This document shows, in pieces, positions 8,544-22,203 of a stretch of 42,352 nt of DNA. This stretch comes from Bifidobacterium vansinderenii. GTDB lineage: Bacteria; Actinomycetota; Actinomycetes; Actinomycetales; Bifidobacteriaceae. The stretch is taken from the NCBI RefSeq assembly GCF_002234915.1, contig NZ_NEWD01000010.1, positions 1-42,352 of the forward strand, read 5' to 3'. Numbering within the stretch: position 1 is the first letter of the stretch; every line of letters starts with the position of its first letter. Made by a program: the position numbers and the translations under genes. The notes beneath the pieces were generated by a model, which ran no database searches, had not been told where the DNA came from, and worked only from the letters and a program-made list of their open reading frames with translations.

Positions 8544-8824
8544 ATTAGAACCACCTATGCGCGCAAAGGCCCTCGCGCATACGTAGTGTGACCACGCTAA
8601 CAGCAGGTATTGCAGGACCCCGACCACCCCTACCCTCAGAAATCTCCCAGTTTTTCCACAGGAGTAGCCTAGAAAGGGAACAGTGAACGCACACATACTG
8701 TGCCCATAGTGAACAGGGGCCGTATTTTGCCTTGACATCGCGCGCGTGCATGCCATTCGTTGTCAGCACGCGAGCGCGACGTCGTCGAGCCGGCCCGACA
8801 CTGTAAACGGAACTGGAGAAGTAC

Positions 8825-10123
8825 ATGTTCGTCCTGAAGAACACATGGGCCGCGATGGGGCGCCACAAGGCGCAGACCATACTGCTGGCCCTGACCGCCG
8901 TGGCCGTATCGTTCGGCTCGGTCGTGGGTCTGTCCATCCTCGACGCCGCGAACACGGCGACCACGACCACCTACAATGCGCTTACACCGTCGGTCATGTT
9001 CCGCGCCGACCGCACGCGCATCATCAACGAGGCGGGCGGCGACGCCAGCAAGGTGGACTGGACGAAGTACAACCTGTCGTGGGAGAACTATTCGACGTAC
9101 GTGGAGAAGGCCACGAACGCCGGTGTGCAGCTGGCGAACGCGCATTCCGCCGAGACCGCGAAGGTGAACGTCGACGGCGTGAGCGCCACCAAGGACGGCG
9201 CCCAGCTGGCGATCACCGGCTTCTCCGACGCCGACGCCATCGCCGACAGCCTCAACGGCTCGTACACCGTGGTGAAGGGCAAGGATCTCAGCTACGACAC
9301 CAACAACGACGAGAACGCGGCAAGCACCGTGCTCGTGCCGCAGGCGCTGGCCACCAAGAACAATCTCAAGGTGGGAGACACGATCAAGCTCGTCAACCCG
9401 AGCGATTCCAGCCAGACGCTGGAGGTGAAGATCTCGGGCATATATAAGACCAAGTCCAAGTCGTCCGAGGCGCAGACCGGCATCGACCAAGACAATACGA
9501 TCCTCGCGTCCACGGCCGTGACGATGTCGGCCGGTCTGACCGGCACGGACACCTCCAGCACCGCGAATCTGCTCGACATTGCGATGGTGCTGCAGAGCCC
9601 GTCCGACTACACGAAGTTCGAGAAGGCCGTGCGCAAGGCCGGCCTGAGCAAGGACTACATGATCACGTCGCCGACGATCAACAAGTACAACGACAAGATC
9701 GAACCGCTGAAGAACGGTGCCGCCAAGGTGCGCGTGGGCGTGATCGCCATGTATGTGGCGGGTGGCGTGATCGCGCTGCTGCTGCTCGTGTGGGGCATCG
9801 GCCGCGCACGTACCGGCGAGGTGAGCTTCCTGACCATGGTCGGCGTGACGCGCGGCCGTATCGGATGGCAGTTCTCGTTGGAGAACCTGCTGCCGATCCT
9901 CGTCGGCTGGCTTGCCGGCGCGGCCGGCGGATTCTTCTCCGCCAAGCCGCTATCGAACGCGCTGGCCGCCGGCACGAACGCCACGGTGAGCGCCGGAACC
10001 ATATGGACGGTCGTGTGGATCGGTCTGGGCGCGCTTGTGGCGACAATGGTGATCTGCCTGGTGCGTGCGAACCTGACCACGGCGACGACGATGCTCGGAT
10101 CGCGAATGGAGGAGACCCGATGA
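8825..10123 (+). CDS. FtsX/MacB-like ABC transporter permease
   Basis: A 432-residue protein. One hydrophobic segment lies near residues 18-42 (QTILLALTAVAVSFGSVVGLS), followed by an outer domain of about 260 residues (MacB periplasmic-core-like, Asp/Lys/Thr-rich), then three membrane segments between about 305 and 420. This is the classic FtsX-like order. VGVTRGRIGWQFSLENLLPILVG near 345 matches the conserved cytoplasmic coupling segment between the second and third helices. The start is supported by GGAGAAG 4 nt upstream. It overlaps the next gene by the tetranucleotide ATGA, so the two are translationally coupled. Role: probably mechanical work on envelope proteins or lipids, or export, driven or regulated by the partner. 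Confidence 0.82.
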   Translation: MFVLKNTWAAMGRHKAQTILLALTAVAVSFGSVVGLSILDAANTATTTTYNALTPSVMFRADRTRIINEAGGDASKVDWTKYNLSWENYSTYVEKATNAGVQLANAHSAETAKVNVDGVSATKDGAQLAITGFSDADAIADSLNGSYTVVKGKDLSYDTNNDENAASTVLVPQALATKNNLKVGDTIKLVNPSDSSQTLEVKISGIYKTKSKSSEAQTGIDQDNTILASTAVTMSAGLTGTDTSSTANLLDIAMVLQSPSDYTKFEKAVRKAGLSKDYMITSPTINKYNDKIEPLKNGAAKVRVGVIAMYVAGGVIALLLLVWGIGRARTGEVSFLTMVGVTRGRIGWQFSLENLLPILVGWLAGAAGGFFSAKPLSNALAAGTNATVSAGTIWTVVWIGLGALVATMVICLVRANLTTATTMLGSRMEETR

Positions 10124-18310: not shown

Positions 18311-19261
18311 TCAGATGCCGTAGACGCGGCGTGCGTTCTCACGGGTCAGCGCCGCCGTCTCGTCGACCGTCAGATCAAGCACGTCGGCCATGGCGGCGAG
18401 CGTGTACGGGATCATGTACGGCGCGTTCGTGCGGCCACGGTACGGCATTGACGTGAGATACGGCGCGTCGGTCTCCACAAGAATATGGTCGCGCGGAATC
18501 AGGGCGAGCGATTCGCGAATGCCCTCGTTGCCCTTGTAACTCACCGTGCCGGAGAAGCTCAGATACCAGCCGTTGTCGCGCGCGATACGGCCCATTTCGG
18601 CGTCGCCGGAGTAGGAGTGGAACACGGTCCGATCGGGAGCGCCGTCCTTGAGCAGGATGTCGATGCAGTCGGCGTGGGCGTCACGGTCGTGGATCTGCAT
18701 GGGCAGGTCGAGTTCCTTGGCAAGCGCGATGTGCGCGCGGAACGCCTCGCGTTGATAGTCGCGCGCGGCGTCGCCGGTGCGAAAGAAATCAAGGCCGGTC
18801 TCGCCGATCGCCACGACGATGTCCGGATACGCGACGGCCAGACGATGCACCTCGGCGAGCGCGTCGTCAAAACTGATGTCGTGCCACGGCTTGTACTTGA
18901 TTTCGAGACCGTCGGGCCCCTTCGCTCCGCGGTGACCGTGCAGCACGGCCTCGTTGGGGTGGATGGCCAGGGCGGCGTGCACGCGGTCGGGAAACTCCTC
19001 GGCCAGACTGACGGCACGGGCGAGGTTCGGATATTCGCAGCCGACGTCGACGATCTGCCGGACGCCCACCGCGGCGGCCATGTCGAGCAGTTCGCCTTCG
19101 GAATACACGGGTACGTACGGCTGCCCCTTGACTTCGGCCTCGTGGCTCATGGCCTTGGAGAACGGGACAACGGACCTTACGTGCGTATGGTTGTCGATCG
19201 TCCATTCGTTGAGGGGTTCGGGCGCCGGAGCCCAGCTTCTGTCGCGATGATGTTTGGCCAT
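18311..19261 (-). CDS. tatD: TatD family metal-dependent deoxyribonuclease
   Basis: 316 residues with the TatD ligands in order: DNHTHV (HxH) near the N-terminus, GETGLDFF (metal-bridging Glu), MQIHDRDAH, VFHSYSGD and VETDAPYLTSMPYRG. These proteins are 3'-5' exonucleases acting on DNA or RNA, and in quality control of D-aminoacyl or damaged ends in some species. Length is slightly above the usual 260 owing to an N-terminal stretch. ATG 19261 has GGAG 3 nt upstream; the frame extends further to 19297 without an initiation signal. It lies downstream of two small RNA units that carry their own terminators, and near metG, a common TatD neighbourhood (metG-tatD-rsmA/ksgA in many Gram-positives). 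Confidence 0.9.
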   Translation of the reverse strand: MAKHHRDRSWAPAPEPLNEWTIDNHTHVRSVVPFSKAMSHEAEVKGQPYVPVYSEGELLDMAAAVGVRQIVDVGCEYPNLARAVSLAEEFPDRVHAALAIHPNEAVLHGHRGAKGPDGLEIKYKPWHDISFDDALAEVHRLAVAYPDIVVAIGETGLDFFRTGDAARDYQREAFRAHIALAKELDLPMQIHDRDAHADCIDILLKDGAPDRTVFHSYSGDAEMGRIARDNGWYLSFSGTVSYKGNEGIRESLALIPRDHILVETDAPYLTSMPYRGRTNAPYMIPYTLAAMADVLDLTVDETAALTRENARRVYGI

Positions 19262-19322
19262 ACGCTCCAGTATGCACGCCCGCCTGACCGATGGCACGAA
19301 AACGATTGCGTGGAAAATGCGC

Positions 19323-19359
19323 GAAAAAAGAGAAACCCGGCGGGGACTGGCCGCCGGGT
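19323..19359 (-). terminator. Intrinsic terminator of small RNA 1
   Basis: ACCCGGCGG and CCGCCGGGT form a 9-bp GC stem with a 7-nt loop, followed on the minus strand by TTCTCTTTTTTC. Confidence 0.85.
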
Positions 19360-19468
19360 AATCAGAGAAAGGAAGAGAGAAGAAGGGTTCAGTTATCCGA
19401 TTCGCTTACCGAGTGACTCGACGTTGCCGTGCCATCCGAGGAACCGTACCAGCGGTGTCATCCGCTGA
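19323..19468 (-). ncRNA. Candidate small RNA 1 of a twin pair, CU-rich
   Basis: A promoter-like TTGCAT-17-TATAAG (19502 to 19474) and a strong intrinsic terminator delimit about 146 nt. The RNA would begin with a hairpin CAGCGG-N6-CCGCTG, have a variable middle, then a shared segment GATAACTGAACCC followed by an unpaired CU-rich run (CUUCUUCUCUCUUCC), then the terminator. A related unit lies at 19791-19902. The CU-rich run is complementary to purine-rich ribosome sites, as in known CU-rich antisense sRNAs. A tiny frame starting at 19461 is open for 22 codons but is not conserved in the twin. Confidence 0.55.
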
Positions 19469-19473
19469 CATTT

Positions 19474-19502
19474 CTTATATAACCACCGCTTTCTGGATGC
19501 AA
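19474..19502 (-). promoter_or_regulatory. Promoter of small RNA 1
   Basis: TTGCAT (19502-19497) and TATAAG (19479-19474) are spaced by exactly 17 nt. Transcription would start near 19467, just inside the 5' hairpin. Confidence 0.5.
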
Positions 19503-19604
19503 CGATGCAATAACCTTGGAGTTACCTAAAAATGCGAACGCTCAGGTGAAGTTCCGATGAACTCTCCCCATAGCCGCCTGCCTCAGGTACATGATCATTC
19601 GAAT

Positions 19605-19717
19605 TTGGGGCACCAACTACCCGAATTCCGCTCTTCGGGGCGCCAAATACCCGTTTTCGCGTCGATTTTCGGGCATTTGACGCCCCAAAGAGCAGATGTT
19701 CCTGCATAGTGAGACAG
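19605..19717 (+). repeat. Palindromic dispersed repeat, family A copy 2
   Basis: Two direct half-copies (GGGGCACCAACTACCCG and GGGGCGCCAAATACCCG) lead into an inverted stem GCTCTTCGGGGCG (19630-19642) with CGCCCCAAAGAGC (19681-19693), one mismatch. Beyond the stem AGCAGATGTTCCTGCATAGTG and GAGACAGAT are shared with copy 3. It lies between the twin small RNA units. Confidence 0.8.
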
Positions 19718-19790
19718 ATCCGACGATCGATTCCGCGATATGAGCAGCCGTCTTCGGCCACGCGACCGCCGCAATCCAGGATTTGCCTGC

Positions 19791-19828
19791 AGAAAAGAAG
19801 AAACCCGGTGGGAGAGAAGACCACCGGG
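19791..19828 (-). terminator. Intrinsic terminator of small RNA 2
   Basis: CCCGGTGG and CCACCGGG form the stem; the minus strand continues TTTCTTCTTTTCT. Confidence 0.8.
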
Positions 19829-19902
19829 CTAGAGAGAGAAGAGAGAAGAAGGGTTCAGTTATCAGATTCGATTGGAATCTCACCAGCGGGTTCAACCGCT
19901 GA
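19791..19902 (-). ncRNA. Candidate small RNA 2 of a twin pair, CU-rich
   Basis: About 112 nt from a TATAAG -10 element (19913-19908, -35 poor) to an intrinsic terminator. The 5' hairpin CAGCGG-TTGAAC-CCGCTG matches that of unit 1 with a different loop; a second small hairpin AGATTC-CAATC-GAATCT follows, then GATAACTGAACCC shared with unit 1 and a CU-rich run. Similarity outside any shared reading frame suggests an RNA product. It lies downstream of metG on the same strand, separated by repeat loci. Confidence 0.55.
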
Positions 19903-20050
19903 CATGTCTTATATAAGCAGCCGTTCCTTGGAAAGATGATGCGGGAACCTGAATCTTTCCTGAGAATGTGTGAGAGATTTGTGACGGCTCACATAAGTTG
20001 AACATCGCAGGGTTCGAGAGGATGGGATTCGTTGGGCGAAGCAGCTCGGC

Positions 20051-20103
20051 CCCTCCCTCAGTCCGACTACGTCGGCCAGCTCCCTCCCATGGAGGGAGCA
20101 CGC
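20051..20103. repeat. Modular GGGAGG hairpin repeat, locus 5
   Basis: CCTCCCTCAGTCCGACTACG core hairpin followed by CTCCCTCCCATGGAGGGAG. It is a single module 85 bp from locus 6. Confidence 0.8.
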
Positions 20104-20189
20104 GGATGCCGGGCCATTTTGGCATCGGACAGCCCCTTACCGCGAAGGGAAAGAACACGATGACCGACCGACATGACCGAACAGAACGT

Positions 20190-20316
20190 TCTCCCTCCAT
20201 GGGAGGGAGATGTCATGACGAAAGTCATGACAAAGGGAGGGACCGGAAACCTTCAAGGATCCAATCCCTCCCCCAGTCCGACTACGTCGGCCAGCTCCCT
20301 CCCCCGGAGGGAGCAC
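20190..20316. repeat. Modular GGGAGG hairpin repeat, locus 6
   Basis: CTCCCTCCATGGGAGGGAG, the GAAA-loop stem TGTCATGAC/GTCATGACA, then a TCCGAC-TAC-GTCGG core and CTCCCTCCCCCGGAGGGAG. It lies 27 bp after the metG stop on the metG strand. Confidence 0.8.
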
Positions 20317-20343: not shown

Positions 20344-22203
20344 TCAGGCGAGCTTGGCCTTTTCGGCGGCGAGGCGCTCGGCCTCCTTGGCACGACGGGC
20401 GTCAAGCTCGGCCTGGAAGCGCTCGAGCTCCTCGGCCACGGCCTCCTTCGGGATCTTGGCGAAGATCGGCTTCGGCTTCGGCACCACGGCGCCCACGGTG
20501 ATCGGCTCGCTCTTCCACGGGTGCACGTTCACGCCCAGCTTGTAGTCGCCGGTGATGATCGGATAGCTGAAGCCGGGCTTGTCGAGATCCTCGACCTCCT
20601 CGATGTGCGGCAGCGGCGAGAACACGCCCTCGCCGCCCAGGGCCTCCCACACCTTCTGCGCGGAGTGCGGCAGGAACGGCGCGAGCAGGTGGTTGGCGTC
20701 GGACACGGCCTGTGCGGCCACGTGCAGCACGGTGCCCAGTCGAGCCTCGTCGTCCTTGATCTTCCACGGCTCCACGGCGGAGATGTACTTGTTGATCTCG
20801 CCGACGATGCGCATCGCCTCGGCCAGGGCGGCCTTCTGGTGGTGCTTCTCGAGGAAGTTGCCCACGGTGTCGAACGCGGCGTTGGTCTGCTCGAGCAGCG
20901 CGCGCTCCTGATCGGTCATCTTGGACTCATCAATGGCCGGGATCGCGCCGAAGTTCTTGGCGATCAGGTTGGCCACACGGTTGACGAGGTTGCCCCACGC
21001 GGCGGCCAGCTCCTCGTTGTTGTGGCGCACGAACTCGGCCCACGTGAAGTCGGAGTCGGAGCTTTCCGGACCTGCCACGGAGATGTAGTAACGCACGGCG
21101 TCCACGGGGTAGCGGGCGAGGATGTCCTTCACGTAGATCACGATGCCGCGCGAGGAGGAGAACTTCTTGCCCTCCATGGTCATGAACTCGCTGGCCACCA
21201 CCTGCTCGGGCATGTTCAGCGGGCCGAGTTCGCCGGTCTCGCCGCCCTTGGAGCCCTGGCCGTTGTAGGCGAGCATCTCGGAGGGCCAGATCTGCGAGTG
21301 GAAGGTGATGTTGTCCTTGCCCATGAAGTAGTAGGCGGGGGTGGACGGGTCGTTCCACCAGGCGCGCCACGCCTCCGGGTCGCCCTTGCGGCGGGCCCAT
21401 TCGATGGACGCCGACAGGTAGCCGATCACGGCGTCGAACCACACGTAGAGCTTCTTGTTCGGGTTGTCGATCCAGCCATCCACCGGCACGGGGATGCCCC
21501 AGTCGATGTCGCGGGTGATGGCGCGCGGCTTGACTTCCTTGAACAGGCCGATGGAGAAGTTGATGACGTTGGTGCGCCAGCCTTCGCGGGTCTTGAGCCA
21601 TGCGAGGTTCGCCTCGGCGAGCGCGGGCAGGTCGAGGAAGTAGTGCTCGGTCTCCTCGAAGCGCGGGGTTTCGCCGTTGATCTTGGAGACGGGGTTGATC
21701 AGATCGATCGGGTCGAGCTCGTTGCCACAGGCGTCGCACTGGTCGCCACGCGCGCCGTCGGTGTGGCAGATCGGGCATTCGCCTTCGATGTAGCGGTCGG
21801 GCAGGGTGCGGCCGGTGGACGGGCTGATGGCCACCTGCTGCGTGCCCTTGTAGATGTAGCCGTTCTTGAGGCACTGCTTGAACAGCTCCTGCACCACGTG
21901 CTCGTGGTTGCCGGTGGTGGTGCGGGTGAACAGATCGTAGCTCAGGCCGAGATCGCACAGGTCCTTGGCGATCACGCGGTTGTAGCGGTTGGCGAGCTCC
22001 TGGGCGGTCAGGCCTTCCTTTTCGGCCTCGACCAGGATCGGGGTGCCGTGCTCGTCGGTGCCGGAGACCATGAGCACGTCGTTGCCCTTCATGCGCTCGT
22101 AGCGCGCGTAGACATCCGAGGGGACGCCGAAACCGGCCACGTGGCCGATATGGCGGGGGCCGTTCGCATACGGCCAGGCGACGTTAACAAGAATATGACT
22201 CAT
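20344..22203 (-). CDS. metG: Methionyl-tRNA synthetase
   Basis: 619 residues. The class I HIGH motif is GPRHIGH near residue 15-21 and the KMSKS loop is KKFSSSRG near 347. A knuckle [18 protein letters not shown] near 141-158 binds zinc, marking the MetG1-type. The C-terminal region is the anticodon-binding helical domain with a charged tail; no separate EMAP/Arc1p-like tRNA-binding domain is present. It charges tRNA-Met for initiation and elongation. The start ATG is followed by [12 protein letters not shown], the usual N-terminus; the ribosome site is weak. It is divergent from the AbiEi-like gene with a DnaA-box-like cluster between them. Confidence 0.97.

Follow-up and report, generated by a model that had tools for sequence, protein, structure and literature searches.

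Twin units between metG and tatD of Bifidobacterium vansinderenii: predicted members of a multicopy small-RNA family of bifidobacteria

On the minus strand of a Bifidobacterium vansinderenii contig, two short units, here called B and A, are flanked by metG and a tatD-type gene. This raises the question of whether they are small RNA (sRNA) genes and, if so, how such RNAs would be controlled and what they would act on. Within the window, that is, the whole stretch of 42,352 nucleotides analyzed, unit B is predicted to give an RNA of about 110 nt (about 19903-19793) and unit A one of about 145 nt (about 19469-19325); the gap of about 300 bp between them belongs to neither. The first-pass annotation had described twin short units on one strand, and this description is correct: both have their own promoter, a 5' hairpin, the AUAACUGAACCC block, a CU-rich run and an intrinsic terminator, the 3' end being in each case a GC stem followed by a T-rich tract (Table 1). 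The -10 box of unit B (19916-19908) and its upstream repeats fall outside the range proposed at the time, 19323..19902.

The TTATATAAG string starts at 19916 in unit B and at 19482 in unit A, both on the minus strand, and its one occurrence on the plus strand, at 19909, belongs to the same palindromic stretch. The hairpin arms CAGCGG/CCGCTG enclose TTGAAC in unit B and ATGACA in unit A. GATAACTGAACCC starts at 19863 and 19397, respectively, with no further occurrence on either strand of the window, and together with part of the CU run it is spanned by a 36-nt direct repeat that is 94% identical between the units. In unit B this block shares its initial bases with the foot of hairpin 2; unit A has a longer structured middle at about 19448-19398. 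A terminator scan permitting loops of 3 to 8 nt detected the terminator of unit A and missed that of unit B, probably because of the 9-nt loop of the latter.

Table 1. Predicted features of units B and A and their neighbors in the window. A1, alignment of 16 units; A2, alignment of 8 subtype II units.
Feature	Position	Strand	Basis
Unit B upstream array, direct repeats about 11 bp apart (TCACA, TCACA, TCAGG, TCAGG, CATCA, CAAGG); putative activator site	19925..19984	-	95 family upstreams; weight matrix 40.5 bits (matrix built from the same family upstreams that it scores at units A and B)
Unit B -10 region TTATATAAG	19908..19916	-	Sequence; all 16 A1 units have an unchanged TTATAT
Unit B hairpin 1, CAGCGG-TTGAAC-CCGCTG, predicted 5' end near 19903	19884..19901	-	Fold, covariation
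Unit B hairpin 2, AGATTC/GAATCT core	19861..19883	-	Fold; A-U to G-C on both sides in 3/16 units
Unit B GATAACTGAACCC and CU-rich run, predicted mostly unpaired	19831..19863	-	Fold; nearly invariant in A1
Unit B intrinsic terminator, 10-bp stem, 9-nt loop, U-rich tail	19793..19830	-	Fold; A1 helix
Unit A upstream repeat array, proximal part	19490..19533	-	Weight matrix 40.4 bits (same matrix); sequence
Unit A -10 region TTATATAAG	19474..19482	-	Sequence; A2
Unit A hairpin 1, predicted 5' end near 19469	19449..19468	-	Fold
Unit A GATAACTGAACCC and CU-rich run, predicted partly paired	19360..19397	-	A2; fold
Unit A intrinsic terminator and T tract	19325..19359	-	Terminator scan
metG, upstream neighbor, same strand	20344..22203	-	TIGR00398 above cut-off
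tatD-type hydrolase gene, downstream neighbor, start codon probably 19261	18311..19297	-	TIGR00010 above cut-off

The intergenic DNA around the units carries other repeats. Between metG and unit B, at 20051-20316, a repeat that contains a palindrome, CCCTCCC...GTCCGACTACGTCGGCC...GGAGGGAGCAC, occurs as two 51-nt copies with 94% identity, along with related inverted arms; this is perhaps a dispersed intergenic repeat. Between the units, at 19605-19695, strings resembling GGGGC.CCAA.TACCCG recur with an inverted counterpart, as judged by eye; they are absent from a search for repeats of at least 18 nt.

We assessed the predicted structure at the level of the single units and of the alignment. 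The fold of unit B stood out from dinucleotide shuffles (z = -3.88, 1/200 as good); for unit A, 46/200 shuffles were as good (z = -0.73). The three helices assessed in A1 were paired in 95.5% of cells, compared to 90.5% in shuffled controls and at most 46% when the helices were slid, and 18 cells had changed on both sides, a number that none of 500 shuffles reached (mean, 6.4). Helix 1 was the weakest (85.4% paired), and the terminator helix of 9 pairs was paired in 100% of cells, with both-side changes at 3 pairs. In a complementary analysis, the arms of hairpin 1 formed 5.66 of 7 pairs with their own partner versus 5.21 with the arms of other units (P = 1.8e-5, n = 62; P = 0.014, n = 29), and those of hairpin 2 formed 4.77 versus 4.25 of 6 pairs (P = 2.0e-8, n = 62; P = 0.0003, n = 29); with many units having arms in common, these effects are modest, and since the sequences are related and hence not independent, the P values are optimistic. 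When 63 diverse units were aligned by sequence alone, almost no consensus fold emerged apart from four pairs of hairpin 2. The hairpins thus covary, in agreement with the earlier impression of an sRNA pair whose stems are retained while the loops differ. The resulting architecture is a 5' hairpin, usually a second hairpin, then AUAACUGAACCC and the CU-rich segment, and finally the terminator.

How far does this architecture extend? The exact 24-base core occurs three times in the B. vansinderenii genome, in which the covariance model has four matches, the fourth on contig C10. An 18-base pattern with up to two mismatches matched all nine genomes of the genus set. The units fall into three subtypes, namely, I (unit B), II (unit A, with the longer middle) and III (copy L003). 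Subtypes I and II form a pair on one contig in 6 of the 9 genus genomes, 267 to 712 bp apart from start to start; in two genomes (G004 and G008) contig ends are no more than about 1.5 kb away from the two copies, and in one (G003) the matches are on separate contigs. Given these six genomes and the contig-end cases, the twin arrangement is probably old within the genus.

On a larger scale, a covariance search of the kind that the first-pass annotation had proposed revealed a multicopy RNA across the taxonomic family: model R1, built from 16 units, matched 129 of 151 genomes at E ≤ 0.01, with 1 to 11 matches per matched genome, and 121 of the 130 good-quality ones. With the architecture recurring so widely, the likeness of the two units exceeds what chance would give. 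When R1 was run on the order, 21 of 297 genomes matched, all from the bifidobacterial family; three listed nonmatching genomes also belong to it, and there is no match among the remaining genomes. Model R2, built from 98 units, had no match in 393 other genomes of the class; the strict filters of such large searches can lose weak copies. With laxer filters, R2 was applied to 20 of the 22 R1-negative family genomes and gave one weak match each in G041 (E = 0.005) and G025 (E = 0.095, chance level). The 20 R1-negative genomes that were listed are small (0.7 to 1.8 Mb), and many of them are incomplete. Among named genomes, the exact core was found in 63 stretches, 62 from Bifidobacterium and 1 from Scardovia wiggsiae; the culturable strain B. 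catenulatum subsp. kashiwanohense JCM 15439 carries a copy of this core. One genome of another genus (G010) carries three family matches about 1.3 kb apart on its contig C6 (L309, L316 and L319; E = 1.1e-9, 2.9e-4 and 5.1e-4). The family is found in most sampled bifidobacteria, often in several copies, and judging from sequence conservation, units A and B are very probably members of a real sRNA family.

The same units could in principle be read as something other than stand-alone sRNA genes. Small-protein genes starting at AUGUCAGCGG are barely credible: unit B contains a possible frame of 17 residues, and near-leaderless translation is conceivable given that 79 of 137 units share the position of the ATG, but 58 units lack that ATG, 42 have no start codon at all at the 5' end, and the frames of the remaining units with a start range from 4 to 42 codons. 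The distance to the conserved block is spread over the three phases (modulo 3) with 58, 41 and 36 units. We consider the small-protein reading unlikely as no frame is kept over the 137 units, which bears out the earlier statement that no reading frame is conserved. The neighboring genes suggest two further readings. The end of unit A is about 65 nt upstream of the likely start of tatD, on the same strand, and the unit might be taken as a cis-acting leader or attenuator of this gene. We regard such cis-regulation as very improbable because, among the loci examined by simple open reading frame calling, other copies adjoin unrelated genes in both orientations; moreover, tatD lies within 2.5 kb downstream of just 8 of the 64 exact-core copies in named stretches, some of which end early. 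In the same set, metG is upstream on the same strand of 44 of the 64 copies, within 2.5 kb in 41, so that the metG-linked copy could chiefly derive from the 3' untranslated region of metG and serve mainly in processing or termination. This is highly unlikely as well, since the units bear a conserved promoter region and 20 of the 64 copies have no metG in their stretch (some stretches ending early). Considering the metG-linked setting, which is the most frequent one, and the unrelated neighbors elsewhere, one copy looks ancestral and the others dispersed. What the units do display are the features of stand-alone sRNA genes, i.e., a promoter region (judged by its conservation), a terminator and no conserved frame.

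We then turned to the promoter, using 95 nonredundant upstream regions of the family. Their self-match was 0.337 at a lag of 11 and 0.311 at a lag of 22, compared to 0.257 (standard deviation, 0.005) in shuffles, an excess that is less significant than the shuffle spread suggests because the upstream sequences are homologous; at lags 10 and 12 the self-match was slightly raised (0.278 and 0.270). Counted from the first T of TTATAT, A and G recur at an 11-bp phase at -45/-44, -34/-33 and -12/-11, with an intermediate unit that is offset by one base. Repeats near -67 and -56 are weaker, and the two distal repeats show low conservation. A promoter scan found no sigma-70-type promoter with a -35 box, and the array ends where the -35 box would lie. 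An array ending at this position is typical of OmpR/PhoB-type activation. The direct repeats about 11 bp apart suggest that an OmpR-type response regulator acts on them, and the eight B. vansinderenii proteins matching Trans_reg_C, the OmpR-type DNA-binding domain, are candidates.

Over 475,149 bases (the window plus B. vansinderenii stretches and loci, with overlaps), the weight matrix gave no score above 12.0 outside the sRNA promoters, while one shuffled and one reversed control reached 13.6 and 16.5, respectively. The fourth B. vansinderenii copy scored just 9.1, so that divergent members escape this matrix. With up to three mismatches allowed, a degenerate pattern of the repeat had one site in this genome, that of unit B. 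The phosphate regulator was considered as activator and rejected: the repeat of the pstS region is a different one, GTTCAC, and there the sRNA matrix does not exceed 5.8. These pstS repeats (L157:1150-1250) resemble actinobacterial PHO boxes. Elsewhere in the window, at 8632-8690, a CTCAG/CCCAG/CACAG/CCTAG chain in 11-bp steps precedes the open frame 8825-10123; the matrix score of the chain, 11.4, is within noise. By eye this frame is ABC permease-like, and it has no NCBIfam match.

What would the RNAs act on? The conserved unpaired part consists of AUAACUGAACCC followed by CUUCUUCUCUC (123 of 135 segments), with 97% pyrimidines after the anchor. The first-pass annotation had proposed that the CU run pairs with AGGAG-type ribosome sites. 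This was not supported, since, of the 135 single-stranded segments, just 21 contain the complement CUCCU and a single one contains CCUCC. In a pairing test with 300 genes called by a simple script in part of the B. vansinderenii genome, some of them surely spurious, the unit B segment reached -12.9 kcal/mol with start regions versus -10.1 kcal/mol with coding sequence; shuffled segments paired more strongly with start regions (-14.8 kcal/mol) and reversed ones about equally (-12.6 kcal/mol). Generic pairing with purine-rich start regions is therefore allowed and no specific design is seen, so that start-region pairing looks like a matter of composition. Similarly, a 17-base antisense pattern had no conserved site besides the sRNA genes in nine genomes, and with a looser pattern, control patterns were as frequent.

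On balance, we lean towards reading units A and B as paralogous, stand-alone, trans-acting multicopy sRNAs that would be controlled by a response regulator and would pair through their CU segment with several mRNAs. A winged-helix response regulator would occupy the repeats of roughly 11 bp, which would stand in for a -35 element, and would turn on all copies jointly in response to some stress or nutrient signal. The RNAs would then reduce the translation of several mRNAs through imperfect pairing of their CU-rich segment with purine-rich ribosome-binding regions, with the copies having additive effects or operating at different levels. The main rival, rather unlikely in our opinion, is a protein-binding RNA, in which the AUAACUGAA block and the pyrimidine tract capture and titrate an RNA-binding protein, such as one of the cold-shock or KH type, with no pairing to mRNA. 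A plain anti-Shine-Dalgarno reading leaves the AUAACUGAA part, which is conserved but not CU-rich, unexplained; the AUAACUGAAC block and the CU run show about the same degree of conservation, and the order of the CU run is kept though it does not improve start-region pairing. In addition, the AUAACUGAA block is present two or three times at 14-nt spacing in 4 of 137 units, a hint that it is itself a binding module: the fourth B. vansinderenii copy (L057:2375-2563) and its relative L136:445-633 have three such blocks, and two other units have two. However, these repeats may be local tandem duplications, the L057 and L136 units are near-identical and come from two genomes of one genus, and CU-rich sRNAs elsewhere pair with mRNAs, as described in the Listeria LhrC paper (PMC4132741). 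We also raise, as an unlikely and tentative version, a family-specific RNA of 1 to 11 copies per genome whose composite AUAACUGAA plus CUUCUUCUCUC module would be an RNA-binding-protein site, a sponge under response-regulator control, rather than an anti-Shine-Dalgarno seed.

We recognized no published report of this CU-rich family in the literature searched (article texts without supplements, few of them from subscription journals). Table 2 of a promoter-mapping study in B. breve contains RNase P, tmRNA, 4.5S RNA and three riboswitch-type elements, and the family is absent from the sections of this transcriptome paper that were covered (PMC5746004). None of 11 B. animalis sRNA candidates, whose sequences are in a supplement and which were compared by neighbor names from the main text sections, has metG as named neighbor, and the covered sections of that paper do not mention the family either (PMC4338058); those of PMC2864571 name no bifidobacterial motif. 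Trans-acting sRNAs of bifidobacteria thus seem hardly described in this literature. The family, with its occurrence in most sampled genomes, its shared promoter signature and its fixed seed-like segment, offers a concrete starting point for studying how RNA exerts control in one of the major genera of the human gut, and the shared signature makes the regulator findable. To our knowledge, no Hfq-type helper is expected in bifidobacteria.

Finally, we compared the family with known RNAs. In agreement with the earlier view that no named family fits, only a tRNA reached its gathering score when the whole window was scanned with Rfam 15. At 19200-20050 no LhrC entry appeared at E ≤ 5, the LhrC model being assumed present in the library, and 6C RNA had no match over the window or this region. 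The alphaproteobacterial ar14 (RF02344) over unit B was rejected, as its 19.5 bits (E = 0.29) are far under the gathering score of 58.8 and such matches are mostly due to chance. Among other systems, the CiaR-controlled csRNAs of streptococci are multicopy sRNAs behind response-regulator repeats with a pyrimidine-rich seed, and RsaE-type sRNAs have a C-rich, pyrimidine-rich seed; both belong to another phylum, and their sequences were compared through the Rfam scan alone. 6C RNA is, like our units, an actinobacterial sRNA with pyrimidine-rich unpaired parts. However, its two hairpins carry loops with at least six C, no such loops are present in the folds of units A and B, and in the bifidobacterial units it is the linear CUUCUUCUCUC run that is conserved.

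The likeness to LhrC1-5 of Listeria monocytogenes goes further. These RNAs are multicopy and have CU-rich motifs, one of them in a single strand between hairpins; all five copies depend on a two-component system for expression, and there are three redundant UCCC-type motifs (PMC4132741). In LhrC such motifs lie in a loop, in the single strand and in the terminator loop, and the RNA pairs with ribosome-binding sites and blocks them. The bifidobacterial units likewise occur in several copies per genome and have a CU-rich motif in a single strand. However, they come from another phylum, and UCCC is present in just 8 of 135 of their single-stranded segments. Since UCCC is not their conserved element and no Rfam model fits, we did not assign them to LhrC. 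By analogy, the bifidobacterial family likely works like LhrC, without kinship being implied.
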